The notes under the pieces are model-generated. The model saw nothing but the letters and a program-made list of their open reading frames with translations. It did no database searches and was not told the origin of the DNA. DNA of 64,000 nt, taken from positions 342,994-406,993 of the forward strand of contig JAPJBO010000095.1 of the NCBI GenBank assembly GCA_030068145.1, given 5' to 3'. This document shows positions 22,278 to 62,895 of the stretch, piece by piece (position 1 is the first letter of the stretch; every line of letters starts with the position of its first letter). The position numbers were made by a program, and so were the translations under genes. The stretch is from Diplonema papillatum. Lineage: Eukaryota; Euglenozoa; Diplonemea; Diplonemida; Diplonemidae.

Positions 22278-23577
22278 TTACTTCACTGCCCCCGGCTCTC
22301 CCCGGCCTTCGTCATCCCGGGGGAGGGTTCCACGGCCATCTCCCCCCGCGTGGGGAATGGACTGGTGCTGTGCCGCGGGTCCTTCCGTGCGTCCTCGCGA
22401 CGTCGCCGCTGTCGATGTCACTGCCGCTGTTGCTGCCGCTGCAGCCGCTGTCGGGCGGTTGGTTGACGATCCCGGTCTGCATCCCGCCCGTTGCGCGTCG
22501 GCTTTCTTCTTCTCGGCGTTCGCTAGGACGTCCCAAAGGTGGCGGCTGCCGCCGCCGCGTGCGCGACGGTGCGTCGCCCGGTCGTGTCTTGCCCGTGCCT
22601 TCCACTTCTCGCCGCTGTGTTGCCACCCCCGTGGGTAATGGGCCTGGGGTCGGAAGCTGCCGGTCAGGACACCCGCCTTCTCCCAGTGGCCGCCCTGGTC
22701 GCCCCGTCCTTTGTTCGCCATCTTTTTGGGCACGTGCCGTACGGCGGCGACTTCGAACGCCCGCATCACCGCTTCGAAGGCCTCCCGGTTGTTGATCTGC
22801 GGCCGTTTGTTGAGGCCATGGAGGATGGGTCCCCCGAGGCTGGTGAGGTGGTTGACGCGCATCTCGAGGGCCGGGTGGACGGCTTTCACGCGCGCAATCT
22901 TGCCCAACCTGCTCAGCGCGGTCCTCATCGCCCACCCTTTCGCGGTCGCCGAGTCGCTGTAGGCCTGTGCCGCCTGTCGCTGTGCGGTGTCCATGGCGCG
23001 GTTCGACAGTTCGTCCGCATCCTTGTTGAGCTCGCGAGGAATGTGCACCGGCTCGATCGTCGTCCGTCGGTCGTGCAGCTTCGCCAACAGGTTCTGCGCC
23101 TGGTCGTAGTATCGCCGGAGTGTTTCGTTGCACCTCTTCGTGCCCTTTATCTGACCAATGACCAGTTCGCTGTCGCCCTTGACGACGATGGTGCGGGGTG
23201 TCGGCGGCACGGGGTCCCGCAGCAACCTCGCCAACACGCTGACGAACCCGACGTATTCCGCCACGTTGTTCGTCGCTCTCCCGGCAATGGGCTTCTCAAC
23301 TTCCCACTGCTTGACGCCTTTGTCGTAGAAGACCGCCCCGGCTCCCGCGACCGCGCCGTTGGTCCCGTTCCCCCGACTGCCGCCGTCGAAGAACGCCGCC
23401 GTCTCCTCTCCCGGCAGCGTGTCCGCCACGGTCCAGCGCTCCTTCGGCTGCCGCTGCGCGATGTTCTCCTGCCTCCGCTGTGTGCCGGCCGGCGTGAGGG
23501 TCAGGCCGCTGTGCAGCTCAAAATCGACAGCGAGCTCGAAATACGAGATGGAGGCCTGCTTGCCGGTTTCGGACCAC
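22278..23577 (-). pseudogene. Retroelement polyprotein C-terminal fragment with RNase H domain
   Basis: Minus-strand reading frame, stop TAA at 22278-22280. It stays open upstream to about 23630 with no ATG, so it is a fragment rather than a gene with its own start. Near the N-terminus SISYFELAVDFELHSGL and RQPKERWT precede an RNase H type-1 fold: FFDGGSRGN (first Asp), NNVAEYVG (Glu), VKGDSELVIGQIKG (second Asp) and HIPRELNKDADELSNRAMD (last Asp), so all four acidic positions are intact. A 170-residue Arg/Ala-rich tail follows. RNase H of this kind removes RNA from RNA-DNA hybrids during reverse transcription. No RT domain is seen upstream. Deletion derivatives lie at 7146-7372, 8879-9035 and 27745-28035. 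Confidence 0.75.
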
Positions 23578-28990: not shown

Positions 28991-29203
28991 TACGGTAGGC
29001 CCTCCTCAGTATGGTGCCGCAGTAGGTGACTGTCTTTTTTTGTTATTGTTTTGTTTGCCATTCGTAAGAAACGTAGTGTGTCGCGGTTTCTGGAAGAAGA
29101 CATTCCCTTTGTTTTTGGGAGAGCGGGGGTGTCCTCTTCTGAAAGGTTTGCTTGGCGCCGTTAGGGTGGCGGTCTTGTATTGATTGGTGATCTATCGTCC
29201 GTC

Positions 29204-29975
29204 TCTTGAGCACAGATTGCTGCTTTGGTACGTGCTGTTCCTTTCTTGGAAGCGTGTGTGGAAAAGAGTGCGACACTCATTTGCGTGAAAAATCAGCCCC
29301 ACGAACGCAACACGGCGGTGATGGAACGTGGGCCTTGTGTCAGGAACTAACCGGAAAGATGCTGACCATCGGAGAAGATGTCCAAAGGCGATGTAACACC
29401 GACACAGACGCATGAGCCGAGTATAGCCTGTCCGGAACCTCCCAGGGCAGAGGGAACCTTTTTCGGCGGTGCAGGAACAGAGCTCGCGCAAGTATCCGGT
29501 GAAACCCTCGTCAATACCCCCCAAACGGCTCACGCATTGCACGTTTACGGGCGCTAGCGCCTGCAAGTGCCATGCAGGTTGCCGCCGTATCTTGAGCATA
29601 GATTTCTGCTGGTACGTGCTGTTGCTTTCTTGGAAGCGTGGTGGAAAAGAGTGCGACACTCATTTGCTTGAAAATGAGTCCCCACGAACGCAACACGGCG
29701 GTGATGGAACGTGGGCCTTGTGTCAGGAGCTGACCGGGACGATGCGGACCATCGAAGAAGAAGTCCGAAGACGATGTAACACCGACACAGACGCACAAGC
29801 CGAGAATGGCCTGTCCGGAACTTCTCAAAGCAGAGGGGACCTTCGGTGGTGAAGTAACAGAGTTCGCTCGAGTGTCCGGTGAACCCCTCGTCAATACCTT
29901 TCAAACGGCTCACGCATTGCGCATTGACGGGCGCTTGCGCCTGGTGGAGCAAGCATGTCGCACTCGCCGTATCTG
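29204..29975 (+). repeat. Tandem duplication, unit about 387 bp
   Basis: Copy 1 is 29204-29590, copy 2 29591-29975, both starting CTTGAGCA and ending GCCGTATC. The copies differ by about 15 percent with small indels. Short open frames (HGGDGTWALCQELTG in one frame, TAHALRI in another) occur in both but neither is intact through the unit. Confidence 0.85.
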
Positions 29976-30100
29976 GAAGGTGAGACGAGAGGCACCGATT
30001 CTATTGATTTATCAGGGGAATTCTACTAGGTAAGACAAACGACCCTTAGGACACCTCGGTGCGCACTCGGATCGCGGGGGAAAATTTTCTTGTGGGAGGG

Positions 30101-36940: not shown

Positions 36941-37275
<335 letters not shown>

Positions 37276-37402
37276 CTGCGTGTGTGAGTGGGCGGATATG
37301 AAGAGTGGAATGCGGGTCGTTTGTCCCCGTGGAGATACTTCAATCTCTGAAAACACACACGACGAAGGCAACGCGCACCGCGAGGCGGAACACATACGTT
37401 GC

Positions 37403-43212: not shown

Positions 43213-43339
43213 AAAGGGGGGGAGTCGATCAATCGGCACGCACAATCGAAACAAAGCGCATGTCGCGCCTGTCTTCCCTCCTTCCCGGACGAAATGTGTG
43301 ACGAAATGTAGGAAGATATCTTCCGAGCACAGGATTCGC

Positions 43340-44295
43340 ATGAATTTGCATGCACTTCGATCTCGACGTGACACTCAGGCTGAAAACACGGCATCGTGGT
43401 TCGTGGCATTGCTTTCGGCACAGCCTCGGACCCGGAACCGGGGACCCTGTCCTTCGGTCTCCAAAAGTCTGAATAGTGCACCAATACGAAACTGCAAAAC
43501 TCGATGTCCCGATTTGAGGCAATCCGCTCCGAAGGCTTTCGAAGGAGCCTGCGCGGCATTTCTTCGATCGGGTTGCAACGCCCTCCTCCCCTGACAAAAT
43601 GTGGGAAGGGATCTTCCGAGCACAGGAACCACACGAATTTGCATGCACTTGTGGAAAGCTGCTGACGGGGATCTGGCGGGCCCAAGCTTTGTGGGTAATG
43701 CAGAGCCCGCACTTTTTCGACCTCAATAGTCAGGCTAGAAAAACGGCATTGTGGTTCGTGGCATTGCTTTCAGCACAACTTCGGACGCGGGACCGGGGAC
43801 CCTGTCCTCGGTCGCCAGAAATCCGAATAGCGCACCACGAAATGTTGGACCGGCACGAAGGCTGATCCGGGATGCTTCGGCGCTGCAAAACTCGATGTCT
43901 CGATTTGAGGCAATCCGCTCCGAAGGCTTTCGAAGGAGCCTGCGCGGCACTTCTTCGATCGGGTTGCAACGCCCTCCTCCCCTGACAAAATGTGGGAAGG
44001 GATCTTCCGAGCACAGGAACCACACGAATTTGCATGCACTTGTGGAAAGCTGCTGACGGGGATCTGGCGGGTCCAAGCTTTGTGGGTAATGCAGAGCCCG
44101 CACTTTTTCGACCTCAATAGTCAGGCTAGAAAAACGGCATTGTGGTTCGTGGCATTGCTTTCAGCACAACTTCGGACGCGGGACCGGGGACCCTGTCCTC
44201 GGTCGCCAGAAATCCGAATAGCGCACCACGAAATGTTGGACCGGCACGAAGGCTGATCCGGGATGCTTCGGCGCTGCGAAACTCGATGTCCCGTT
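43340..44295 (+). repeat. Tandem array, unit 391 bp, about 2.5 copies
   Basis: Copies begin near 43350 (diverged), 43732 and 44123; the last two are almost identical. Landmarks: GGCATTGTGGTTCGTGGC, CTTCCGAGCACAGGAACC, GCATGCACTTGTGG. The third copy is cut near 44295 and fused to the receptor tail array. No coding function recognised. Confidence 0.9.
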
Positions 44296-46883
44296 TCGAG
44301 GAGTCCGCCGAGTCTTTGGATCAGAAGGTTAACCTGTCGAGCGGTGCGGAGGATGTGCTCCTGCTCGCGGTGTAGTCACCGAAGCTCGGCGACGACGCGA
44401 ATTCGGAGTCGGGTCCGCCGAAGGAAAGGTTCCGAGTCGGCGTGAGAACCGCACGGCCCGAGTCGCTTTCGGTCTCGAACGCGGGTGACACCGGGATCAA
44501 CCGCTGGCTGATGGACACGAAGGAGTCCTTCCGGTACGACTTCACCCGAAAAGGGTCTGCGTCTGCTGCGAAGTCTGCTTCGTGATGCTGTTCAGATAAG
44601 AAACGGAGGACGCAGGCTATGTCGCATCCCGTGGTCCAATACCCAAACGTGCAACCAACAGCAAAACGAGTCCTCGGAGTCTCTGGATCAGAATGTAAAC
44701 CTGTCAAGCGGCGCGGAGGATGTGCTCCTGCGAGCAACAGGCGGGACCAAGTAGCTCGCGCCGAGGCGCGGCGAAGACGCGAACTCGGAGTCGGATCCGC
44801 CGAAGGAGAGGTTCCGAGTCGGCGTGAGAACCGCACGGCCCGAGTCGCTTTCGGTCTCGAACACGGGTGACACCGGGATCAACCGCTGGCTGATGGACAC
44901 GAAGGAGTCCTTCCGGTACGACTTCACCCGAAAGGGGTCTGCGTCTGCTGCGAAGTCTGCTTCGCGATGCTGTTCAGATAAGAAACGGAGGCTATGTTGC
45001 ATCCCGTGGTCCCCGGAGTCTCTGGATCAGAATGTAAACCTGTCAAGCGGCGCGGAGGATGTGCTCCTGCGAGCAACAGGCGGGAGCAAGTAGCTCGCGG
45101 CGTAGTCGCCGAGGCGCGGCGAAGACGCGAACTCGGAGTCGGATCCGCCGAAGGAGAGGTTCCGAGTCGGCGTGAGAACCGCACGGCCCGAGTCGCTTTC
45201 GGTCTCGAACACGGGTGACACCGGGATCAACCGCTGGCTGATGGACACGAAGGAGTCCTTCCGGTACGACTTCACCCGAAAGGGGTCTGCGTCTGCTGCG
45301 AAGTCTGCTTCGCGATGCTGTTCAGATAAGAAACGGAGGCTATGTTGCATCCCGTGGTCCCCGGAGTCTCTGGATCAGAATGTAAACCTGTCAAGCGGCG
45401 CGGAGGATGTGCTCCTGCGAGCAACAGGCGGGAGCAAGTAGCTCGCGGCGTAGTCGCCGAGGCGCGGCGAAGACGCGAACTCGGAGTCGGATCCGCCGAA
45501 GGAGAGGTTCCGAGTCGGCGTGAGAACCGCACGGCCCGAGTCGCTTTCGGTCTCGAACGCGGGTGACACCGGGATCAACCGCTGGCTGATGGACACGAAG
45601 GAGTCCTTCCGGTACGACTTCACCCGAAAGGGGTCTGCATCTGCTGCGAAGTCTGCTTCGCGATCCTGTTCAGATAAGAAACGGAGGACGCAGGCTATGT
45701 TGCATCCCGTGGTCCAATACCCGAACGTGCAACCAACAGCAAAACGAGTCCCGGAGTCTTTGGATCGGAAGGTTAACCTGTCGAGCGGCGCGGAGGACGT
45801 GCTCCGAGCAACAGGCGGGAGCAAGTAGCTCGCGGTGTAGTCACCGAAGCTCGGCGACGACGCGAATTCGGGGTCGGGTCCGCCGAAGGAAAGGTTCCGA
45901 GTCGGCGTGAGAACCGCACGGCCCGAGTCGCTTTCGGTCTCGAACGCGGGTGACACCGGGATCAACCGCTGGCTGATGGACACGAAGGAGTCCTTCCGGT
46001 ACGACTTCACCCGAAAGGGGTCTGCATCTGCTGCGAAGTCTGCTTCGCGATCCTGTTCAGATAAGAAACGGAGGACGCAGGCTATGTTGCATCCCGTGGT
46101 CCAATACCCGAACGTGCAACCAACAGCAAAACGAGTCCCGGAGTCTTTGGATCGGAAGGTTAACCTGTCGAGCGGCGCGGAGGACGTGCTCCGAGCAACA
46201 GGCGGGAGCAAGTAGCTCGCGGTGTAGTCACCGAAGCTCGGCGACGACGCGAATTCGGGGTCGGGTCCGCCGAAGGAAAGGTTCCGAGTCGGCGTGAGAA
46301 CCGCACGGCCCGAGTCGCTTTCGGTCTCGAACGCGGGTGACACCGGGATCAACCGCTGGGCTGAAGGAGTCCTTCCGGTACGACTTCACCCGAAAAGGGT
46401 CTGCGTCTGCTGCGAAGTCTGCTTCGTGATGCTGTTCAGATAAGAAACGGAGGACGCAGGCTATGTCGCATCCCGTGGTCCAATACCCAAACGTGCAACC
46501 AACAGCAAAACGAGTCCCCGGAGTCTCTGGATCAGAATGTAAACCTGTCGAGCGGCGCGGAGGACGTGCTCCGAGCAACAGGCGGGAGCAAGTAGCTCGC
46601 GGTGTAGTCACCGAAGCTCGGCGACGACGCGAATTCGGGGTCGGGTCCGCCGAAGGAAAGGTTCCGAGTCGGCGTGAGAACCGCACGGCCCGAGTCGCTT
46701 TCGGTCTCGAACGCGGGTGACACCGGGATCAACCGCTGGCTGATGGACACGAAGGAGTCCTTCCGGTACGACTTCACCCGAAAGGGGTCTGCGTCTGCTG
46801 CGAAGTCTGCTTCGCGATGCTGTTCAGATAAGAAACGGAGGACGCAGGCTATGTTGCATCCCGTGGTCCCCGGAGTCTCTGGA
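44296..46883 (-). repeat. Tandem array of receptor gene 2 tail copies
   Basis: Seven extra copies of the 3'-terminal coding segment, found by CGAGTCGCTTTCGGTCTCGA at about 44458, 44840, 45188, 45536, 45923, 46310 and 46690 (genic copy 47047). Spacing is 348, 380-382 or 387 bp. Each unit codes on the minus strand for SYRKDSFVSISQRLIPVSP, then FETESDSGRAVLTPTRN and LPPVARRSTSSAPLDR. Relative to the gene, about 70 residues between RLIPVSP and FETESD are missing. Some units end LDRFTF plus stop, others LDRLTFRS and read on into the next unit. No start codon or signal sequence: gene debris or cassette store, not genes. Confidence 0.9.
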
Positions 46884-49800
46884 TCAGAATGTAAACCTGT
46901 CAAGCGGCGCGGAGGATGTGCTCCTGCGAGCAACAGGCGGGAGCAAGTAGCTCGCGGCGTAGTCGCCGAGGCGCAGCGAAGACGCGAACTCGGAGTCGGG
47001 TCCGCCGAAGGAGAGGTTCCGAGTCGGCGTGAGAACCGCGCGGCCCGAGTCGCTTTCGGTCTCGAACGCGGCGCCGTCGGCGTCGGCGCCGCCCCCGCTG
47101 CGGGAGTTGGCCAGCGACGGGTGCGTCGGCCTCCGCGCTGCCAGAGGGGAAGACGCGAGGGACTGCATCGACAGGCTCCGATAAGAGCGAGCCGGCGATC
47201 GAAGGCCGTCGAACGGTGAAGACGACCGGGGTCCATCCCTCGGCTGCCACCGTAAGAACGGTTCGTCGGCCGGACTGGAGGGAACGGGAGACACCGGGAT
47301 CAACCGCTGGTTGGTGAATCCGAGGAGGGGGTCCTCACGGTACGACCGCAGCAACGGGCTCTGCGTCTGGTGCAGGGCCTGCTGCTCAGCGGTGCTGCTT
47401 CGGTGCAGCCGTGAGAAAGGAGACGGCACTCGGGTGAAGGCGTTCAGGTCGCTTGTCCCGGTGGATTGGTTGGAATACGGCAGGGCGGGCGGTGCGGAGG
47501 CGGCGTCGAGCCGGCTTTCCCTGCCGAGCACGCGGGCGTGGAGCTTGTCCCGCCGGCCGCGGACCAGCACGACGATCTCGCCGACCCCTTCGGAGACGGT
47601 CTTCGCGATGAGCAGCGCGCCGGCCGCGGTCATCACGGCGTCGCCGGCGCTGAAGGCGCCCTGGCTGTCGGCGTAGAACGCCGCTGCCAGCAGCGCGAGC
47701 CCGGCCGCCTGTACCGCGTGCAGGCACGGCTCCGCGACAGTGTGCAACTTCTTCGCGAACGGCCGCACTGCGGCGTCGAGCGCGAAGCGGCCGCAGAACA
47801 CCGCACTGCAGGCCAGCCGGACGTGCCCGCACCCCGCCGGGTCCGACGGATCTGTCGCGAGGACGCACGCGAGCGCAAGGCTCGTCAAGCACTCCACCGC
47901 CGCGTACCACGCGCACCCCGGCCGCGCGTTCCTCACCAAGCTGCCGTACCGGTTGACCCAGTCGTACTCCTCCCGCCGACTCACCCACTCCCCCGGGCCC
48001 ACGAGCCACACAAGCGCCCGCGGCTCCCCTCCCCCGCTTTTCCCCGCCTCCTCCGGGTCGACCGCCGGCTCGTACACGGCGTGCGTCGGGACCCCGGACG
48101 TGACCCACCGGAAAATGAGCAGCGGCAGGCTCGCACAGACGAGCAGAACGATGCCGCCAACGTACTCGGATTGCGGGAACTCGGGGCTGAAGACAAGCCG
48201 GGCCGCGCCGAAGGTGATCCCGAGGTAGAGGAACTGCCACACGAAGAGCGGGACGGAAGGGTAGCTGCAGTATCCGTTCGGGTCGCGCGCGGTGGCAGGG
48301 AGGAGGTCGAGGTGTTTGACGACTGTGACGACGACGACGAACACGAGGTACAGCCCGAATGCGATCAGGCTGTTGTACACGACGGCACCCAAGTCTTGAG
48401 AGCCCCCGATGGTTGCCTGGATGGGGTGCATGGCCACGGGGTAGGCGTCCTCCTCCTCCCCCCGAGCCTTCCCCAGGTGCCGTGTGCACGCCCTGGTCAC
48501 GAGCGAGATGCGGAGGGCGGCGTGCGGCGAGGCCAGCGTGAGCATGCCCACAGCGCCCGCCACCACGTTCACACTACCCGCGGCACTGGCGCTGCCCAGT
48601 TCTTTGTTGACCAGGTGCTGGTCCCCAGCGGCTTCTTGCGAGCCCAAGTCGGTGTCGTTCGATGGTGATTTGGAAGCCACGGACGCGTTCGTAGGTGCAG
48701 GGGTGTCAGGAGCTTGCGTGTCAGGAGCTTGCGTAGGTGGCGCAATAGTGTCCAGGGTTCGTGTAGCTGGTGAGCTTGTTGGCGGTGCATTCGTGTCTGG
48801 GGTCAGCGTAGGTGGTGAGTTTGTTGGCGGTGCATTCGTGTCTGGAGCTTGTGTGCGTGGTGAGTTCGTTGGTGGCGCATTTGTGTCTGGGGCTTGTGTG
48901 CGTGGGGAGTTTGTTGGTGGTGCATGTGTCGCTGGGGCTTGTGTAGGCGGTGAGCTTGTTGGCGGTGCATTCGTGTCTGGAGCTTGTGTGGGTGGTGAGT
49001 TCGTTGGTGGCGCATCTGTGTCTGGGGCTTGTGTAGGTGGTGCACTCGTGTCTGGAACTTGTGTAGTTGGTGAGCTTGTTGGCGGTGCAATCGTGTCTGG
49101 AGCTTGTGTAGCTGGTGAGTTCGTTGGAGGTACATTTGTGCCTGGGGCTTGTGTAGGTGGTGGGTTCGTTGGCGGTGCATTCGTGCTTGGAGCTTGTGTA
49201 GGTGGTGGGTTCGTTGGCGGTGCATTCGTGCTTGGAGCTTGTGTAGGTGGTGCCGTGGTGTCTGGGGTTTGTGTAGCTGGTGGGCTTGTTGGCGGTGCAT
49301 TCGTGTCTGGGGCCTGTGTAGGTGGCGCAATAGTGTCCGGGGCTTGTGTAGCTGGTGAGCTTGTTTGCGGTGCATTTGTGTCTGGAGCTTGTGTCGCTGG
49401 TGAGCTTGTTGGCGGTGCATTCGTGTCTGGTGCTTGTGTAGCTGGTGAGCTTGTTTGCGGTGCATTCGTGTCTGGTGCTTGTGTAGGCGGTGAGTTTGTC
49501 AGCGGCGCAATCGTGTTTGGGGCTTGTGTAGCTGGTGAGCTTGTTGGCGGTGCATTCGTGTCTGGAGCTTGTGTAGCTGGTGAGCTTGTTTGCGGTGCAT
49601 TCGTGTCTGGTGCTTGTGTAGGCGGTGAGTTTGTCAGCGGCGCAATCGTGTTTGGGGCTTGTGTAGCTGGTGAGCTTGTTGGCGGTGCATTCGTGTCTGG
49701 GGCTTGTGTAGCTGGTGAGCTTGTTTGCGGTGCATTCGTGTCTGGTGCTTGTGTAGGCGGTGAGTTTGTCAGCGGCGCAATCGTGTTTGGGGCTTGTGTA

Positions 49801-50987
49801 GCTGGTGAGCTTGTTGGCGGTGCATTCGTGTCTGGAGCTTGTGTAGCTGGTGAGCTTGTTTGCGGTGCATTCGTGTCTGGTGCTTGTGTAGGCGGTGAGT
49901 TTGTCAGCGGCGCAATCGTGTTTGGGGCTTGTGTAGCTGGTGAGCTTGTTGGCGGTGCATTCGTGTCTGGAGCTTGTGTAGCTGGTGAGCTTGTTTGCGG
50001 TGCATTCGTGTCTGGTGCTTGTGTAGGCGGTGAGTTTGTCAGCGGCGCAATCGTGTTTGGGGCTTGTGTAGCTGGTGAGCTTGTTGGCGGTGCATTCGTG
50101 TCTGGGGCTTGTGTAGCTGGTGAGCTTGTTTGCGGTGCATTCGTGTCTGGTGCTTGTGTAGGCGGTGAGTTTGTCAGCGGCGCAATCGTGTTTGGGGCTT
50201 GTGTAGCTGGTGAGCTTGTTGGCGGTGCAACCGTGTCTGGAGCTTGTGTGGGTGGTGAGTTGGTTGGTACACTCGTGGCGGGGGCTTGTGTAAGGGGCGC
50301 ACTCGTGTAAAAGCCGCACGGTTCAGACTCCTCCGGGGTCACGACGCGGTCCCAGAATTTGATGTCATCGATGAGGTTCCTGCTGACCGCGAAGCCCGGC
50401 GCCACACCACCCATCGTGAGGACGAGATCGGTGGCGTCGGGGATGGGATAGTCGCGCCAGGCCTTCACGCCGCTTACAAACGACACAAAAGTCGTCGTGT
50501 TGCCTGTGATGAGGACGTGCATCCACTGGTCGTGGAAATTCGGCCAGTTGAGTACGTTCGAGCTCAAGCTGCCGATCGTGAATATAAAATTGCCGAAGTA
50601 CTCGACCTTGTACCCTTTCTGCGCCTGCGTGCCCACGGTTAGGAATGTCGCGGTCACTGCGGGTTCGAGCGCCTTGATCCAGAATGAGACCGAGAAGCTC
50701 GCGGTGCCCAACGGGAACCCCGCCGACTTGTTGTGCACGAACACCGGCGTGTCACTCGTCAGCTCGACTGCCATCCCCCCCGGGCAGTACGCATCAGCCG
50801 TGTAGTTGGCCACGTCCAGTGGCTCCTCATTGCGGTTGCCCAACGAGCCGTAATCATGCACGTCGCCGTCCAATGGGTAGTAACCGACGAGCCCAGAATT
50901 CCAAGTGGGCAGCAGCGCGCCGTGAGTCCCCGCAACGATGCAGACGCAGACGCACAAAAGCCGGCTTGCTCGCGAACATGGCTTCAT
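46884..50987 (-). CDS. LamG-type membrane receptor with PPTSSPATQAPDTNA stalk
   Basis: 1367 residues, ATG at 50987, stop TGA at 46884-46886. Signal peptide 1-24 (CVCVCIVAGTHGA). LamG-like domain about 28-225, opening GLVGYYPLDGDVHDYGSLG and closing with IDDIKFWDRVVTPEESEPCG. Stalk about 226-766, Pro/Thr/Ser/Ala rich. About 809-1149 hold seven or eight membrane helices with LHPIQ-like (MHPIQ), LFVWQFLYLG, and PGEWVSRREEYDWVNRYG, matching receptor gene 1 block by block. The cytoplasmic tail ends in SYLLPPVARRSTSSAPLDRF (gene 1: SYALPPAVRKNS). Surface receptor or adhesin by architecture; ligand and signal unknown. Directly downstream lie seven tandem copies of its 3' end. The 5' flank is a dispersed repeat. 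Confidence 0.9.
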   Translation of the reverse strand: MKPCSRASRLLCVCVCIVAGTHGALLPTWNSGLVGYYPLDGDVHDYGSLGNRNEEPLDVANYTADAYCPGGMAVELTSDTPVFVHNKSAGFPLGTASFSVSFWIKALEPAVTATFLTVGTQAQKGYKVEYFGNFIFTIGSLSSNVLNWPNFHDQWMHVLITGNTTTFVSFVSGVKAWRDYPIPDATDLVLTMGGVAPGFAVSRNLIDDIKFWDRVVTPEESEPCGFYTSAPLTQAPATSVPTNSPPTQAPDTVAPPTSSPATQAPNTIAPLTNSPPTQAPDTNAPQTSSPATQAPDTNAPPTSSPATQAPNTIAPLTNSPPTQAPDTNAPQTSSPATQAPDTNAPPTSSPATQAPNTIAPLTNSPPTQAPDTNAPQTSSPATQAPDTNAPPTSSPATQAPNTIAPLTNSPPTQAPDTNAPQTSSPATQAPDTNAPPTSSPATQAPNTIAPLTNSPPTQAPDTNAPQTSSPATQAPDTNAPPTSSPATQAPNTIAPLTNSPPTQAPDTNAPQTSSPATQAPDTNAPPTSSPATQAPDTNAPQTSSPATQAPDTIAPPTQAPDTNAPPTSPPATQTPDTTAPPTQAPSTNAPPTNPPPTQAPSTNAPPTNPPPTQAPGTNVPPTNSPATQAPDTIAPPTSSPTTQVPDTSAPPTQAPDTDAPPTNSPPTQAPDTNAPPTSSPPTQAPATHAPPTNSPRTQAPDTNAPPTNSPRTQAPDTNAPPTNSPPTLTPDTNAPPTSSPATRTLDTIAPPTQAPDTQAPDTPAPTNASVASKSPSNDTDLGSQEAAGDQHLVNKELGSASAAGSVNVVAGAVGMLTLASPHAALRISLVTRACTRHLGKARGEEEDAYPVAMHPIQATIGGSQDLGAVVYNSLIAFGLYLVFVVVVTVVKHLDLLPATARDPNGYCSYPSVPLFVWQFLYLGITFGAARLVFSPEFPQSEYVGGIVLLVCASLPLLIFRWVTSGVPTHAVYEPAVDPEEAGKSGGGEPRALVWLVGPGEWVSRREEYDWVNRYGSLVRNARPGCAWYAAVECLTSLALACVLATDPSDPAGCGHVRLACSAVFCGRFALDAAVRPFAKKLHTVAEPCLHAVQAAGLALLAAAFYADSQGAFSAGDAVMTAAGALLIAKTVSEGVGEIVVLVRGRRDKLHARVLGRESRLDAASAPPALPYSNQSTGTSDLNAFTRVPSPFSRLHRSSTAEQQALHQTQSPLLRSYREDPLLGFTNQRLIPVSPVPSSPADEPFLRWQPRDGPRSSSPFDGLRSPARSYRSLSMQSLASSPLAARRPTHPSLANSRSGGGADADGAAFETESDSGRAVLTPTRNLSFGGPDSEFASSLRLGDYAASYLLPPVARRSTSSAPLDRFTF
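48690..50310 (-). repeat. 135-bp coding minisatellite in receptor gene 2
   Basis: Six near-identical 135-bp (45-residue) units, marked by GTCAGCGGCGCAATCGTG at about 49498, 49633, 49768, 49903, 50038 and 50173, plus shorter degenerate 42-45 bp units toward 48690. Each unit combines PPTSSPATQAPNTIAPLTN and PPTQAPDTNAPQTSS. A higher-order repeat, unlike the plain 30-bp array of gene 1. Confidence 0.95.
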
Positions 50988-51648: not shown

Positions 51649-52474
51649 GGCTAGACCAGTGATGGGTGCGCATGCCGTGCGTATAAGTCGATCGGGATCT
51701 TTGAGTGCGTGAGCCCCTCCGAAGAAGGGTCCATCACACTAGTTCCAGGCTACTTAGCCCGGGTCTCTGGGTCGCGTCCCCCTCCTTCTCTTGGTCGCCT
51801 GGTCTTGCGTCTTGTTGGTCCGTCCGGGCTGGTCGCTTCGCGCTTCCCCTTCGTCTTGCATCACCTCGTCTCCACTCCCTGCCGCACGGGCTTCTTCGGT
51901 TTGTGCCACTTGCGCATGCCGTGCGTAGAAGTCGATCTTTGAGTGCGTGAGCTCTCCGAAGAAAGGTCCATCACACTAGTTCCAGGCTACTTAGCCCGGG
52001 TCTCTGGGTCGCGTCCCCCTCCTTCTCTTGGTCGCCTGGTCTTGCGTCTTGTTGGTCCGTCCGGGCTGGTCGCTTCGCGCTTCCCCTTCGTCTTGCATCA
52101 CCTCGTCTCCACTCCCTGCCGCACGGGCTTCTTCGGTTTGTGCCACTTGCGCATGCCGTGCGTAGAAGTCGATCTTTGAGTGCGTGAGCTCTCCGAAGAA
52201 AGGTCCATCACACTAGTTCCAGGCTACTTAGCCCGGGTCTCTGGGTCGCGTCCCCCTCCTTCTCTTGGTCGCCTGGTCTTGCGTCTTGTTGGTCCGTCCG
52301 GGCTGGTCGCTTCACGCTTCCCCTTCGTCTTGCGCATGCCGTGCGGCCGTGCGCACTTTTTTTTTAAAATCGGTGCGCAAGCGTGCGCGCCGTTTGGCTA
52401 CACTGCGCCGTGCGGCCGTGCGCACTTTTTTTGAAAATCGTGCGCAAGCGTGCGCACCCATCACTGGGTTAGCC
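51649..52474. mobile_element. TIR element with 237-bp internal repeats
   Basis: The left end GGCTAGACCAGTGATGGG then TGCGCATGC pairs with the right end GCGTGCGCACCCATCACTGG then GTTAGCC, imperfect over about 27 bp. Inside are 2.7 tandem copies of a 237-bp unit (51705, 51942, 52179) and, next to the right end, two copies of GTGCGGCCGTGCGCAC plus a T-run. No transposase; non-autonomous DNA element expanded from within. Confidence 0.75.
51705..52341 (+). repeat. 237-bp tandem repeat, 2.7 copies
   Basis: Unit GAGTGCGTGAGCTCTCCGAA to TGCGCATGCCGTGCG. Copies 2 and 3 are nearly identical, copy 1 slightly diverged. The repeated 77-78-codon frames in it are incidental. Confidence 0.92.
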
Positions 52475-52880
52475 CAGGTCTCCTGGGGGGGGACAGGGGC
52501 AGGGCTCGTCACGCCAGCAGTCCTCGGGCCCGGTTTCACCCACCTGTCATTTTGTGTCCGTTGTCATCGCTATCGCGCTGACTGATCGAGAGAGCGAGAG
52601 ACGAGTTAGAGTGCGGGGAGCATCCCCTGTCTCCTCACTTCTCTTCGTGCTGCCACGGCGAGCGCAAGTCGCTCCGGACTCGGGTCGCGGCTCTGCTACG
52701 GTGGGTAGCGCACAAGCACGGTGACGGGAAAGATGCAAAGAACATTGAAAAGAGGGCTAAAAGTCCCTGAAACCGATGAGTGGGCAACTGATGATGACCT
52801 ACGCCTACCAGGCATTCCGCATTCAAAGAGAACAATTGCAATCGATCCTCGTGCGACGCAAGTTCAAAAGATTTCCCATC

Positions 52881-53738
52881 CGTCAAAAGCTGATAGGGCA
52901 CAAGCTCTTGCGGGCTTGCACCGACTTGAAGTCGTGTGCTCACTCGATTGACCTGTTTCATCCACACACCGCTGCTATTGCTAGCGTTGGGCCTTATCTC
53001 GGTCAATTGTATCCATCTCGAGCGACCTGGACGTCCTGTCCCACAGGACGTGAACAGCCTTTGCTCAGAACAGGTGGCCCTGGAAGGGACCCATCGAGTT
53101 GCATCAGCCAAAGCATCAGGGCCGGATCGCTTGGATTGCCGCGCAGTTATGGTCGCAACTAGCGTACCTGCTGCCATCATTAGATGTGGTAGCCGTTTCC
53201 CAGGCTCCTTCTCCGGAATCGAACCCTAATTCCCCGTTACCCGTTACAGCCACGGTAGTCCACTACACTACCGTCAAAAGCTGATAGGGCAGAAGCTCTC
53301 GCGGGCTTGCACCGACTTGAAGTCGTGTGCTCTCACTCGATTGACCTGTTTCATCCTGCTATTGCTAGCGTTGGGCCTTATCTCGGTCAATTGTATCCAT
53401 CTCGAGCGACCTGGACGTCCTGTCCCATAGGACGTGAACAGCCTTTGCTCAGAACAGGTGGCCCTGGAAGGGACCCATCGAGTTGCATCAGCCAAAGCAT
53501 CAGGGCCGGATCGCTTGGATTGCCGCGCAGTAATGGTCGCAACTAGCGTACCTGCTGCCATCCTTAGATGTGGTAGCCGTTTCCCAGGCTCCTTCTCCGG
53601 AATCGAACCCTAATTCCCCGTTACCCGTTACAGCCACGGTAGTCCACTACACTACCGTCAAAAGCTGATAGGGCAGAAGCTCTCGCGGGCTTGCACCGAC
53701 TTGAAGTCGTGTGCTATCACTCGATTGACCTGTTTCAT
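52881..53738 (-). rRNA. Tandem fragments of small-subunit (18S) rRNA
   Basis: The minus strand reads CTTCTGCCCTATCAGC, GGTAACGGGGAATTAGGGTT, CGATTCCGGAGAAGGAGCC, GAAACGGCTACCACATC and GGCAGCAGG, which in this order are universal 18S landmarks about 300-480 nt from the 5' end. The unit (391 then 384 bp) is repeated 2.2 times: 52881-53271, 53272-53655, 53656-53738. Upstream and downstream 18S parts (including the universal 530 loop and the 3' minor domain) are absent, so this is not a working gene. It may be an rDNA-derived satellite or pseudogene, or a diverged organismal rRNA segment captured by duplication. Some sequence between the landmarks is not recognisable to me as 18S and may be lineage-specific expansion. 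Confidence 0.8.
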
Positions 53739-54110
53739 CCAGCCGGAAGGCTGCGACGGCGCCGGAAAGGGAACTGCCCGGGGCCAGCGGGTGAGCTCGC
53801 CTCCCCCGCCGGCCACACGATGCTACCGACTTCACTTTGTGGTGTCGTGGGCACATCGTTCACCCTTCGCTGCGTGCATGTATTAGCCTCCGAGGGCGAT
53901 AATACAATCCTTACACCCATGCTTGTGTCTGTTACTCTCGTCCTCCGCTCCTGCTCTGCTTGCCGCGCGCCGTATGGTTGGAGTAGAAGGTGAAGCCAGA
54001 AAGCTGCTAATCTTGCTGCTGACCACATGAAGTGGTGCCAAGCAAACTACTTTGTTTCTCTGGATGGAGCGGCAAACCAGTCGTTCGGATAACTAATAGT
54101 CTTCTAAGAA
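53739..54110. other. Gene-free region after rRNA fragments
   Basis: A GC-rich block (CCCGGGGCCAGCGGGTGAG) follows the last rRNA unit. No other feature recognised. Confidence 0.35.
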
Positions 54111-55382: not shown

Positions 55383-57390
55383 GTATAGTAGTAGTATGTG
55401 TCATCCTAATCCGGGAACAAGTCAGGGAGAAGAACGGAGCAATCTTTGCAAATGAACGAGTGACATAAGGTGGCCGCTTGAGCGGCCAATCCGAGCGCAC
55501 ACAGCAGCAGTGACGCGTCGGCAGTATTTGCACTTCAGGATGGGGCTGCCGTCATGAGCGTCGACGGCTAGCGAGTGTCGGCAGAGGGTGCAGTGGTCGG
55601 AGCAAGCTTGAACGTGGCAGGTCGGTGCCGCACAAATGAGTTGGTCGATGTACTTCAGCGCATTAACCTTGCGCATCCTGCGAGATCACGCGCTTCCGGG
55701 GGTCGTCCGGATCCGGTCCCACGTGCCTTCATGCCTTTCCGCGGCGGCCGCACGGTTCTGCCTGGTGGCGTCCACCACCCGCTGGACCTTCGCGTCCCAT
55801 GCTACCCTGTCTGCCATCAGCTCCCGGATCTCCTCAGTGTTCGACATTGCCGAGGTCGCGTTGGAGCACATCGAGATAAGAAAGCGGAGGTCGACCGCGT
55901 TTCTTCTTTCGACGTGTCGTTGCAAGAAGCACGCTCGATGCTGGCTGGTCCGCCCTCAGGCAGTGCCCAGCGAAGCGGAGCCGCTTTCTCTGCGGTTCAA
56001 CTTCGATCCTCGGGAACTGATCCGCAAAAAGGTCATTATTGCTACAGCGCGTTTCGCGACTGTAGACCTTAATGCCTCGAACAAACCGAACTAGACAAGT
56101 GTATGCTCCCGTGATCTCAGGAAGCAGGGAAGTGCCAACGATCCAAGTTTCGGCGCCTGACAGAAAGACGGGAACCACGAGCGTCTTGAAAAACAAAACC
56201 TTTAGGTCGAGCCTAATCGTGGACCGCCAAACAGACTTCAGTCTGTGTACTGCTACCCAGGCCAAAGACTTGTTCCGTAGGAAATCCGCTCTGCTGTCCA
56301 CGAGCATGGAGCCGAGGTATTTGTAGTCCGGAACCTCACGGAGGGAGGCCCCATCTGGACGCGTTACGGTACGTACAACTGGCGAACCCAGGACGACTAC
56401 CTCTGTCTTGCCTACGCCGTAGTTGACCTTCAGGCCATACTTCGCGGCTGCCGCAGTGAGCTTGTGCAGGAGCACTCTGGCTGCTGCTGCGGATCGGGCT
56501 ATTAGAACAATGTCATCGACAAATTCAAGGTGCTTTAGGCGGATATGCCATCGTCCACACGTAGGACCAAAGCACACGCCCGCGTTCGGAATGTCCACCC
56601 CCTCAACTTCTCTCATGATCGCATCGATCACGAGGTTGAACAGCGTTGGGGCCAATGTGTCCCCTTGGAGGACGCCCGAGCAAAGCTCGATGGCCTCAGT
56701 TAGGCCATGTGGCGTGCGAACCTGTGTTGTCGCCCCACGGTATGTACTAATGATAGCACTCCGGAGCGAATCCGGTACACCGTAGGCTCCGAGAAGCTTT
56801 TCCAATGCGGACCAAAAAACGCTGTCGAAAGCGGTCGAAAAGTCTACGAACACTAAAAAAGCTTCGCCTTCCTTTTCCATCCTGAGCTGCTTTTCTACGC
56901 TTCAGGCAGAGGACGTGTTCAGACGTGCCCCTGCCCGGCCTTCCCCCATTCTGTGTTGGAAGAAGGACGCTGTCAACTTGCCCAATTTGGTCACGTAGGG
57001 CCTGCCGGATCCTCCCTCGCAGTACTGCGTTATACAGCTTCCCGCAGCACGATGCGAGGGTGATTTGGCGGTAGTTCCCTAAATCACGCTGGTTGCCTTT
57101 CTTGTACAGCGGTTGGGTCTCAGACCGCATCCACTCTGCAGCCTGCATGTACGCCTCCCGACAAAACTCGGTGACCTTTTCTTGTACGTCAGGGACGCGC
57201 AAGAATGCGTTCGGAACTCCATCCGGACCGGCTGCCTTGCTGACCTTAAGCCTACGAGAGGCACCCGCAACTTCAGAGATCGTGGGCGGTTCTGTCTTCC
57301 AGTCAAGGTTTCTGGCTATTAGTCGTGGTATCGCGGATGTGTCCTCACAATCACCGTGTTTTCTGCGGAGAGCTCGGTCTGCGGAGAGCT
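55383..57390 (-). pseudogene. LINE (non-LTR retrotransposon), 5'-truncated ORF2
   Basis: Reads leftward. 57390-56885: KAAGPDGVPNAFLR (RT motif 0), LYKKGNQRDLGNYRQITLAS, QNGGRPGRGTSEHVL. A frameshift near 56880 moves to the next frame: FLVFVDFSTAFDSV (first catalytic Asp), SGVLQGDTLAPTLFN, FVDDIVLIARS (catalytic F-x-DD), then RRKKKRGRPP. A second frameshift near 55900 and one in-frame stop (55686-55688) precede a Cys-rich C-terminus, CSDHCTLC then CKYCRRVTAAVC. The 3' end is a TAC/CTA microsatellite (55383-55397). No endonuclease domain remains. It would have encoded the RT for target-primed integration; with three breaks this copy is dead. Relatives: 4990-5670 and 30665-30895. Confidence 0.9.
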
Positions 57391-60890: not shown

Positions 60891-62708
60891 TTAGGTCGTC
60901 TCGGTGAAAAGCCGGGGGGTGACGAGAGGCAGCTGAGTGGGCGCTGCGTCGCCGGGTGGATTCCTGAGCCATTCGACCAGCCGCCGAGCCGCCTGCGGAA
61001 CGGTCCTCTCCGCCAGTATGTTCGCCGTCTCTTCTCGCTGCCCCTTCAGGTAAGCGACGGTGAGCGTGTTCACGAAGCTGACCTGCATCATCCCGGGGGA
61101 CTGCACCGTGTACATCCACTCCGCACCCACTTCCCCATGGTTCGCACGTTCGACCCTCCACAGGATTAGGGGCAGAGATGTCGTACCTTTGCAGTACGTG
61201 AGCATTTCAGGCACGGCAACCACCTCGTACGCAGTCATCACGTCTTTCGCCATGGTTGTGTCGATCAACAGTCTGATCCCCCAGTCTCTGGCCACCGAAA
61301 CGATGGTGTGAGCGAGGGAGTACACGCGGCCGACTATGTTGTACCGCCTTAGGGTTTCCGTCCCCATGTTTCCACAGAGGGCCTCTCCGCTTGAAACTCC
61401 GCCGTGGGTCACGATGCTTGCCTTCAGCGAACCGATGCCCACCTCGTAAGCTGCCGATACCGCCATGCTCCGGTGACTGACGCATGGGCGTGACGCATTC
61501 CACGAGCACGCGACGTGGTCACCCATGAAGAAGTCGACGATGCCTTTCGTTTTACTCGCGGCGATAACGATCAGGGAGAGGAACACCTTCTGAAGGCTCG
61601 CGATGTCGTTTTTCGCGTCGTTGTCGGCGACCCTCTTCGACTCGGCGTCCCGGTGCGTCGCGCGGGGTTCCAACAACTCGTGGAGCCCGCGCACGTTCAG
61701 CGCCGCGATCGAGACCGTCCGGCGGACGTATTCGTCGATGGAGTGGCGGAGGCTGAGCTTCGCTGTCCACGCCGGGAGCGACTGGGTGAGGCTCCCGCGG
61801 CCGTCGTCGCTCGCGGCGCTGTCCGGGCCGGCAGTGCTGCCGCCGTCGCCCGCATACAAGAAGCAAGACTGCGGCAGGAACGGCTCGTACCGCTTGAGGT
61901 TCGCCAGCAGGCCGGACAGCACCGCGACGAACTCGCCGGGAATTTCGGACTGGTCGCCGCTCGAACACCGCCGCAGGAGCGTCTCGGCCTCGGCGAGCTG
62001 GAATCGGACCAGCAGCTCGGAAACGTCGCGGGCGGCTTCGATGCTCGTCTGCATCTTCTCCTTCTCGGCGGTCAACCCCCAGGCGAAGCTGCGCGTGATG
62101 AAGAAGTCGACGGAGAACACCACCAGCGCGATCACAAGGGCGTGCAGGCCTTCGGTGGGCGGTATCTTGCACGGGGGGCGGGCGCAGGAGCAGTTCGCCC
62201 TGCGCTCGCTGTAAGAACTGGTCAGAGAGACGTCGTACAGTCCGTATCGGTACACTGCCTCCACCTGGGTGACAACCAGCCAACCAACCCCCATTGCCAC
62301 CAAGCAAAGACTCGACCTCGATGGCAACTTGCAAACCAACGCAGCATCTGTGTACAGCACGAGCACCGGCCACGACCGAGCCATCATCGCGGCGGCGTGG
62401 TCCAGATCTGCGACGAACAGGCAGAGCACGCTGCCGACGATCCACGAGAACATGTTCCTGTCGCTCACGCGCTTCTGGCACAGGACCGACGCCAAAAAGC
62501 AAACGTCCCACGCGCTGAGCGCGGCGGCGGCGAAGAACACCAAGTCCAGGTCCTCGTTCGACAGCCGCTGGGCGGCGGTGAAGGTAGTCACGCACCAACT
62601 AACCACCAGCATGCTCGGGTAGATCAGCTTCCGAAGCCTTTGCACGTCGGTGTCGCCCGGCAGCGCAATGCAACGGCGAAGCGGCTCGAACAGCCGCGCG
62701 ACTCCCAT
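60891..62708 (-). CDS. Six-TM protein with degenerate class III nucleotidyl-cyclase-like domain
   Basis: 605 residues from the ATG at 62708 to TAA at 60891-60893. The frame is open for 12 more codons upstream but begins there only with TTG, so the ATG is preferred. Residues 1-220 hold about six hydrophobic helices (LVFFAAAALSAWDVCFLASVL, LHALVIALVVFSVDFFITRS). Then a charged coiled stretch (EKEKMQTSIEAARD), the motif YEPFLPQSCF near 273, and a cyclase-like fold at about 330-500: FFMGDHVACSW, GGVSSGEALCGNMGTETLRR and GRVYSLAHTI. In active class III cyclases the first metal-binding Asp precedes the G-rich turn and the last motif is V-N-x-A-x-R; here NVRG replaces the Asp block and Ser and Thr replace Asn and Arg. 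Probably a membrane-bound regulatory pseudocyclase. The YxPFLPQS-plus-cyclase order is, from memory, found in kinetoplastids and relatives. Confidence 0.8.
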   Translation of the reverse strand: MGVARLFEPLRRCIALPGDTDVQRLRKLIYPSMLVVSWCVTTFTAAQRLSNEDLDLVFFAAAALSAWDVCFLASVLCQKRVSDRNMFSWIVGSVLCLFVADLDHAAAMMARSWPVLVLYTDAALVCKLPSRSSLCLVAMGVGWLVVTQVEAVYRYGLYDVSLTSSYSERRANCSCARPPCKIPPTEGLHALVIALVVFSVDFFITRSFAWGLTAEKEKMQTSIEAARDVSELLVRFQLAEAETLLRRCSSGDQSEIPGEFVAVLSGLLANLKRYEPFLPQSCFLYAGDGGSTAGPDSAASDDGRGSLTQSLPAWTAKLSLRHSIDEYVRRTVSIAALNVRGLHELLEPRATHRDAESKRVADNDAKNDIASLQKVFLSLIVIAASKTKGIVDFFMGDHVACSWNASRPCVSHRSMAVSAAYEVGIGSLKASIVTHGGVSSGEALCGNMGTETLRRYNIVGRVYSLAHTIVSVARDWGIRLLIDTTMAKDVMTAYEVVAVPEMLTYCKGTTSLPLILWRVERANHGEVGAEWMYTVQSPGMMQVSFVNTLTVAYLKGQREETANILAERTVPQAARRLVEWLRNPPGDAAPTQLPLVTPRLFTETT

Positions 62709-62895
62709 TTTTCTAGCGATTTTCCTCCTTTTTTTTGTGTTCAAACGGACCGTCGTTTTAGAGTCTCCGGTTGACCATTGAGGCTGGGAGTCGGGTAGTG
62801 AGAGCCCCCCCCCTGTGTCGATTCATCGTGGGAATGCTAAGCGCGCAAACGAAATACAACCCAGGGAGATGTTGGCACCGGTTGTCCATCAAAGA
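62709..62895. other. 5' flank of the cyclase-like gene
   Basis: 62753-62777 holds GTTTTAGAGTCTCCGG-TTGACC, the repeat F core, 45-70 bp upstream of the ATG. On the minus strand GCTAG lies just before AAAA-ATG, a possible splice acceptor. Confidence 0.45.

Follow-up and report, generated by a model that had tools for sequence, protein, structure and literature searches.

Directly behind a receptor-like gene of Diplonema papillatum lies an array of copies of the gene's own end, and the question is whether these copies are spare parts for receptor tails or a by-product of local duplication. The locus belongs to a 64,000-nucleotide stretch of contig JAPJBO010000095.1 (assembly GCA_030068145.1, positions 342,994 to 406,993 of the forward strand), which is called the window below. 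An initial annotation of the window had suggested that the array might feed gene conversion of the receptor tail, provide alternative 3' ends, or be the scar of repeated unequal exchange between paralogues. The reading that we prefer, with a probability of about 85%, is that the array represents a repeat-bounded gene end, formed when a segment was repeatedly duplicated in tandem on the spot and its copies underwent unequal exchange or conversion, and that it would be an untranslated scar located within the 3' UTR or downstream of it.

The gene and the units behind it

The features considered are the following (U1 to U7, array units; gene 2, the receptor-like gene):

46884..50987, minus strand: receptor-like gene 2, a single ORF of 1367 aa
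46884..47066, minus strand: exchanged block, the last ~180 bases of gene 2, with identity to the array of up to 98%
46532..46883, minus strand: U1, 352 bp; mosaic with a class-B body and a class-A end; stop TGA
46152..46531, minus strand: U2, 380 bp; frame broken by an 8-column deletion; CGA in place of the stop
45765..46151, minus strand: U3, 387 bp; CGA in place of the stop
45375..45764, minus strand: U4, 390 bp; recombinant with a U3-like 5' half and a U5/U6-like 3' half; stop TGA
45027..45374, minus strand: U5, 348 bp; stop TGA
44688..45026, minus strand: U6, 339 bp; in-frame 9-bp deletion; stop TGA
44321..44687, minus strand: U7, 367 bp; in-frame 24-column deletion; stop TGA; homology ends at ~44301

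The ORF of gene 2 is complete and has no intron. Its product starts with a hydrophobic, signal-like N-terminus and has seven more hydrophobic segments (both by hydropathy only), the final one at residues 1110–1128 of 1367 being followed by a C-terminal tail. A Laminin_G_3 domain was found (domain match, 1.2e-7), together with a long P/T-rich repeat stalk in which the match to Extensin_1 is slightly below the curated cut-off. For such a putative product, “receptor” is a fair label.

The array is arranged as the initial annotation had described it: seven complete units run head to tail over 44321–46883 (minus strand), in the orientation of gene 2, starting directly after the stop codon of the 46884–50987 ORF. 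Pairwise identity between the units amounts to 93.7–99.7% over 315–387 aligned columns, which is far above chance. Each unit represents the final ~101 codons of gene 2 minus 71 residues located between ...PVSPV and FETESDSG..., so that both the “last 100 or so codons” and the “about 70” missing residues were correctly recognised. The idea of a gene tail with a deletion is, however, too simple: the 71 residues are indeed missing, but the 5' part of the unit is far more diverged from gene 2 (72–76% identity) than the 3' part of 176–188 bases (90–98%), as seen in the four units covered by locus L010. The frame of the final ~101 codons is open in six of the seven units, the exception being U2. U2 and U3 carry CGA at the stop position, and the resulting 325-aa ORF (45375–46352) spans more than two units. 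When one unit was searched against the genome (271 Mb in 2910 contigs, match counts being lower bounds), at least nine matches were obtained, of which two are pieces of gene 2's own tail and the others the seven units themselves.

Exchange among the units and with gene 2

In the 3' block, U4, U5, and U6 form class A together with gene 2, and class B is composed of U1, U2, U3, and U7, of which U1 and U7 locally resemble class A. A different grouping is seen in the 5' halves: U4 with U3, U2 with U7, and U1 with U5 and U6. In the four-gamete test, 86 of the 325 pairs of informative columns do not fit a tree, so that the array units have recombined.

This mosaic structure bears on the possibility that the array is an assembly artefact. 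Tandem repeats are prone to assembly error, and one paralogue of gene 2 together with its copy was found on two contigs (loci L028 and L029). However, assembly stutter would not yield the many mosaic substitutions and indels observed in the units, and for a similar D. papillatum array long-read support is given in the part of the genome paper devoted to it (PMC10161547). An artefact is thus considered extremely unlikely.

The last ~170 bases of gene 2 have exchanged sequence with the array. In its last ~176 bases gene 2 differs from U4 in 3 of 176 columns, while in the homologous 91 columns just upstream 22 differ (Fisher p 7e-9; both counts derived from alignment identities), and the sign of conversion between array and gene that the initial annotation had envisaged is therefore present.

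Silent cassettes, such as those of trypanosome VSG and Borrelia vls, are partial gene copies that lie beside the expressed gene and exchange sequence with it. The array could, by analogy with these antigenic-variation systems, be a donor store for programmed conversion of the receptor tail: its partial copies adjoin gene 2, the end of the gene has exchanged sequence with them (22/91 vs. 3/176 columns), and the units fall into two main classes with mosaics. Nevertheless, adjacent repeats are expected to exchange without any programme, and ordinary unequal exchange would equally produce the sign seen in gene 2. Unlike cassettes, which carry the variable, exposed part of a protein, the array copies a tail located after the last hydrophobic segment, outside the lectin-like Laminin_G_3 domain (the topology being deduced from hydropathy), and the array, known from one assembly, displays no sign of programmed switching. 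As the copies at other loci also lack clear constraint (see below), we consider a programmed donor store very unlikely.

Recurrence behind other family members, coding constraint, and splicing

A protein search with the C-terminal half of gene 2 listed 83 matches, 6 of which are array units in the window. After removal of L029, whose figures equal those of L028, and of L030, which lacks a flank, the 30 best of these 83 matches left 28 receptor loci, which were compared with kinase loci. All downstream flanks were trimmed to 700 bases and those shorter than 400 were dropped, by which 4 of 30 kinase loci were lost and 26 retained. The downstream flank was lengthened for eleven receptor loci, in five cases because it was short and in six because a copy was already known there, and the kinase loci were left unextended.

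Tail copies were found downstream at 10 of the 28 receptor loci and at 1 of the 26 kinase loci (p 0.005), an excess that depends on a single control family and on small numbers. With the window's gene 2 left out, the receptor count is 9/27 (p 0.011). Copies no farther than 60 bases from the stop codon occur at 8/28 receptor vs. 1/26 kinase loci (p 0.025), or at 7/27 vs. 1/26 without gene 2 (p 0.05). For repeats inside the downstream flank itself, the excess is not significant (9/28 receptor vs. 4/26 kinase loci, p 0.21). Among the kinases, L058 and L059, possibly duplicate contigs, were counted separately, and L042 has stop codons within its kinase match, so that its “tail” may not be the gene end.

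Eight of the ten receptor loci with copies have copies of at least 130 bases. Weak copies are represented by L013 (62 bases, 77%) and L032 (65 bases, 92%), and the match at L021 stops short of the stop codon. Five copies are present at L037 and two at L036.

A same-strand blastn comparison of the 28 loci at 1e-6 gave 27 tail-to-downstream matches, all of them own-locus and distributed over 11 loci, and 0 cross-locus matches. Among the 28 tails, different loci match each other at the DNA level in four pairs only. The lack of cross-locus matches, together with these few matching tails, indicates that the copies arose, or stay alike, locally. Of the three suggestions of the initial annotation, the scar of repeated unequal exchange fits best, but the exchange appears to be local and not between paralogues.

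A tail library common to the paralogues was also considered, and it is rejected by the same 27 own-locus vs. 0 cross-locus matches over 28 loci. We observed in addition that the receptor family tails evolve fast and that many genes of the family lie on shared contigs.

The locus-specific character of the copies is important for the suggestion that the array is a 3' UTR regulatory sequence, whose units would recruit RNA-binding proteins or define poly(A) sites. The genome paper gives a median of ~800 bp for the long 3' UTRs of D. papillatum and proposes that they act as regulatory platforms (PMC10161547), which is in line with this suggestion. However, no sequence shared by the copies across loci was detected (0 cross-locus matches), and the repeated part is mostly coding-derived; a regulatory role of this kind seems very improbable. 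One can also suggest that tail duplication is selected for in the receptor family, the copies being a local 3' donor array that renews or varies the intracellular tail via conversion. The family would then evolve its signalling ends from a self-made 3' donor array, but we see only a slight chance of this.

No strong coding constraint was seen when 12 copies from seven other loci were analysed. The pN/pS ratio is 0.86 for the 12 copies and 0.69 for one copy per locus (26.5/535.6 synonymous and 48.5/1411.4 nonsynonymous sites; p 0.14), these numbers being small and some constraint on the gene branch being expected in them. Only 3 of 14 indels in the copies at these loci are multiples of three, and at six of the seven loci the copy carries one or more indels of another length. 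This analysis left out the weak matches (L013, L032) and, at L018 and L025, some of the additional copies. The pN/pS values of 0.69–0.86 would lend working tails no support, although they do not prove neutrality; together with the indels, they leave the store of working tail variants proposed in the initial annotation unsupported.

Within the coding part of the array units, three of the four indel types are in frame. U3 and U4, compared as representatives of classes B and A, differ in the 3' block by 7 synonymous and 7 nonsynonymous changes (pN/pS 0.35, Fisher p 0.052), which, along with the open frame in six of the seven units, hints at a past or present coding constraint. The open frame itself says little because the units are so alike. 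At L018, L025, L028, L036, and L037, the last part of the first copy can also still be read in frame with the gene, and both the signs in the array and these first copies could simply reflect youth.

In clusters of alternative terminal exons, several tail-like coding segments lie downstream in the same orientation. The units of the array may likewise be alternative last exons, if splicing from within gene 2 to an acceptor in a unit resulted in different receptor tails. A pyrimidine-rich stretch with AG (TTTCTTATCTGAACAG) is located ahead of the stop-leading frame in all seven units, this frame is kept in six of them, and at L025 a consensus donor, CACAG/GTAAG (the slash marks the splice boundary), occurs inside the repeated tail. 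As the genome paper reports, D. papillatum introns are mostly GT-AG and present in ~41% of genes (PMC10161547). However, gene 2 differs from the terminal exon clusters in being a complete, intronless ORF without the units, and AG/GTRAG is absent from its last 700 bases, where consensus donors only were considered. Among the last 700 bases of the 28 tails, such donors were found at L025 only. The non-triplet indels in copies at six of the seven other loci also argue against alternative last exons, and alternative splicing is reported in the same source for ~5% of multi-exon genes (PMC10161547). We regard this reading as very unlikely.

At L025 (contig C182), the repeated tail ends at CACAG/GTAAG, and GT is retained in the downstream copy. 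This locus may possibly represent a published form of the repeats, that with the repeated end of an exon inside the first intron.

Repeat-bounded gene ends and other features of the genome

The opinion of the initial annotation that no system of this form had been described is wrong, since tandemly repeated gene ends, 3' ends of single-exon genes included, are presented in the Diplonema genome paper (PMC10161547). Its sections on the “repeat-bounded gene structures” of D. papillatum report dozens of gene models with adjacent repeats, many of them repeating the 5' part, and the worked example, DIPPA_19968, has 12–13 copies of its 5' end in degenerate units of ~400 bp that are 71–96% alike (PMC10161547). 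According to these sections, such repeats are part of the 3' UTR in single-exon genes, while in the worked 5' example they are absent from mature mRNA. The gene 2 array resembles these structures in that a gene terminus (coding sequence included) and its flank are tandemly repeated beside the gene, and in that its units are likewise degenerate and of a similar length (339–390 bp). It differs from the worked example in representing the 3' end instead of the 5' end. Among the papers listed in a literature search, the Diplonema genome paper was the only one with the phrase “repeat-bounded gene”, and a general search on receptor-tail and last-exon repeats gave nothing of the array's form in titles and the beginnings of abstracts.

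We suppose that the repeat-bounded end of gene 2 would have been formed by tandem duplication of a segment spanning the stop codon, i.e., the coding end and the start of the 3' flank. The copies would then have multiplied and been shuffled via unequal crossing over and/or gene conversion, an exchange in which gene 2's own last ~170 bases took part. The array looks like a by-product of repeated local duplication and not like a reserve of functional spare parts. Since the protein is not altered by a duplication located behind the stop codon, such a duplication should be tolerated. Because the stop codon of gene 2 precedes the array, and because the relevant sections of the genome paper report such repeats as 3' UTR or as absent from mature mRNA (PMC10161547), the array copies are probably untranslated, being located in or beyond the 3' UTR.

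The gene 2 array is thus no isolated oddity but belongs to a class of gene-edge repeats that recurs in this genome. Our additions to sections 7 and 8 of the genome paper (PMC10161547) are modest: the recurrence in a family (in our sample, copies are commoner behind the receptor-like genes than behind kinases and match the neighbouring gene only), the mosaic units, and, for this array, the exchange with gene 2. A route to fast-changing protein tails in diplonemids becomes testable in this way. Such arrays can also mislead gene prediction, a warning given in the same paper (PMC10161547).

Other tandemly duplicated stretches of the window are located at 52880–53743, 43375–44308, 51667–52333, and 29199–29977. 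At the end of the tail array begins a second tandem array (43299–44308) with 391-bp units, the third copy being diverged, and the two arrays form ~3.6 kb of unbroken tandem repeats. Periods of ~340–391 bp, mostly 380–391, occur in four tandem duplications (29199–29977, 43492–44308, 44321–46883, and 52880–53743). A length of ~380–391 bp is close to two nucleosome repeats. The window periods are also near the ~400 bp of the published D. papillatum example (PMC10161547). The tandem duplication at 52880–53743, whose shift is 391 bp, is overlapped by an 18S rRNA fragment.

For a 28S piece taken from the window, 40 scored matches, itself included, were obtained among 688 first-look candidates. The genome paper gives ~280 Mb, 6181 contigs, and ~3600 scattered 28S pieces (PMC10161547).

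Genome-wide, a 16-base spliced-leader piece has 701 exact matches and its reversed control 0, and a longer GT-ended pattern has 376. The letters of the 16-base query are those which we take to be the euglenozoan spliced leader. The window contains zero copies of the leader's last 12 bases. At L084, the one locus examined, SL RNA genes composed of the leader and an intron-like stretch are located beside 5S and U2. This SL RNA–5S–U2 unit of D. papillatum is described as exceptional and apparently absent from other diplonemids in the corresponding part of the genome paper (PMC10161547).

At L081 (match at 1501) and L083 (match at 1507), the sequence behind the full leader does not resemble the SL RNA intron of L084, and two spliced-leader 16-mers abut at C171:186176–186207 and at C179:260913–260944. 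The leaders at these four sites look like reinserted reverse-transcribed leader-tagged mRNAs or leader-carrying elements. At C91:17062–23059 the 16-mer occurs four times with an exact spacing of 1994 bp, and both copies within L082 (C91:17000–19200) have a variant leader. No Rfam family was found on scanning L082 and L083, so that the leader copies at these loci are without adjoining 5S or U2.

A window ORF of 617 aa (60891–62744, minus strand) has no Pfam match at E 0.01; its C-terminal half, judged by eye, presumably resembles protist nucleotide cyclases. Fragments of reverse transcriptase and RNase H are present in the window at 55834–56880 and 22278–23429 (minus strand), and 175 TG dinucleotides in a row occupy 36941–37290.
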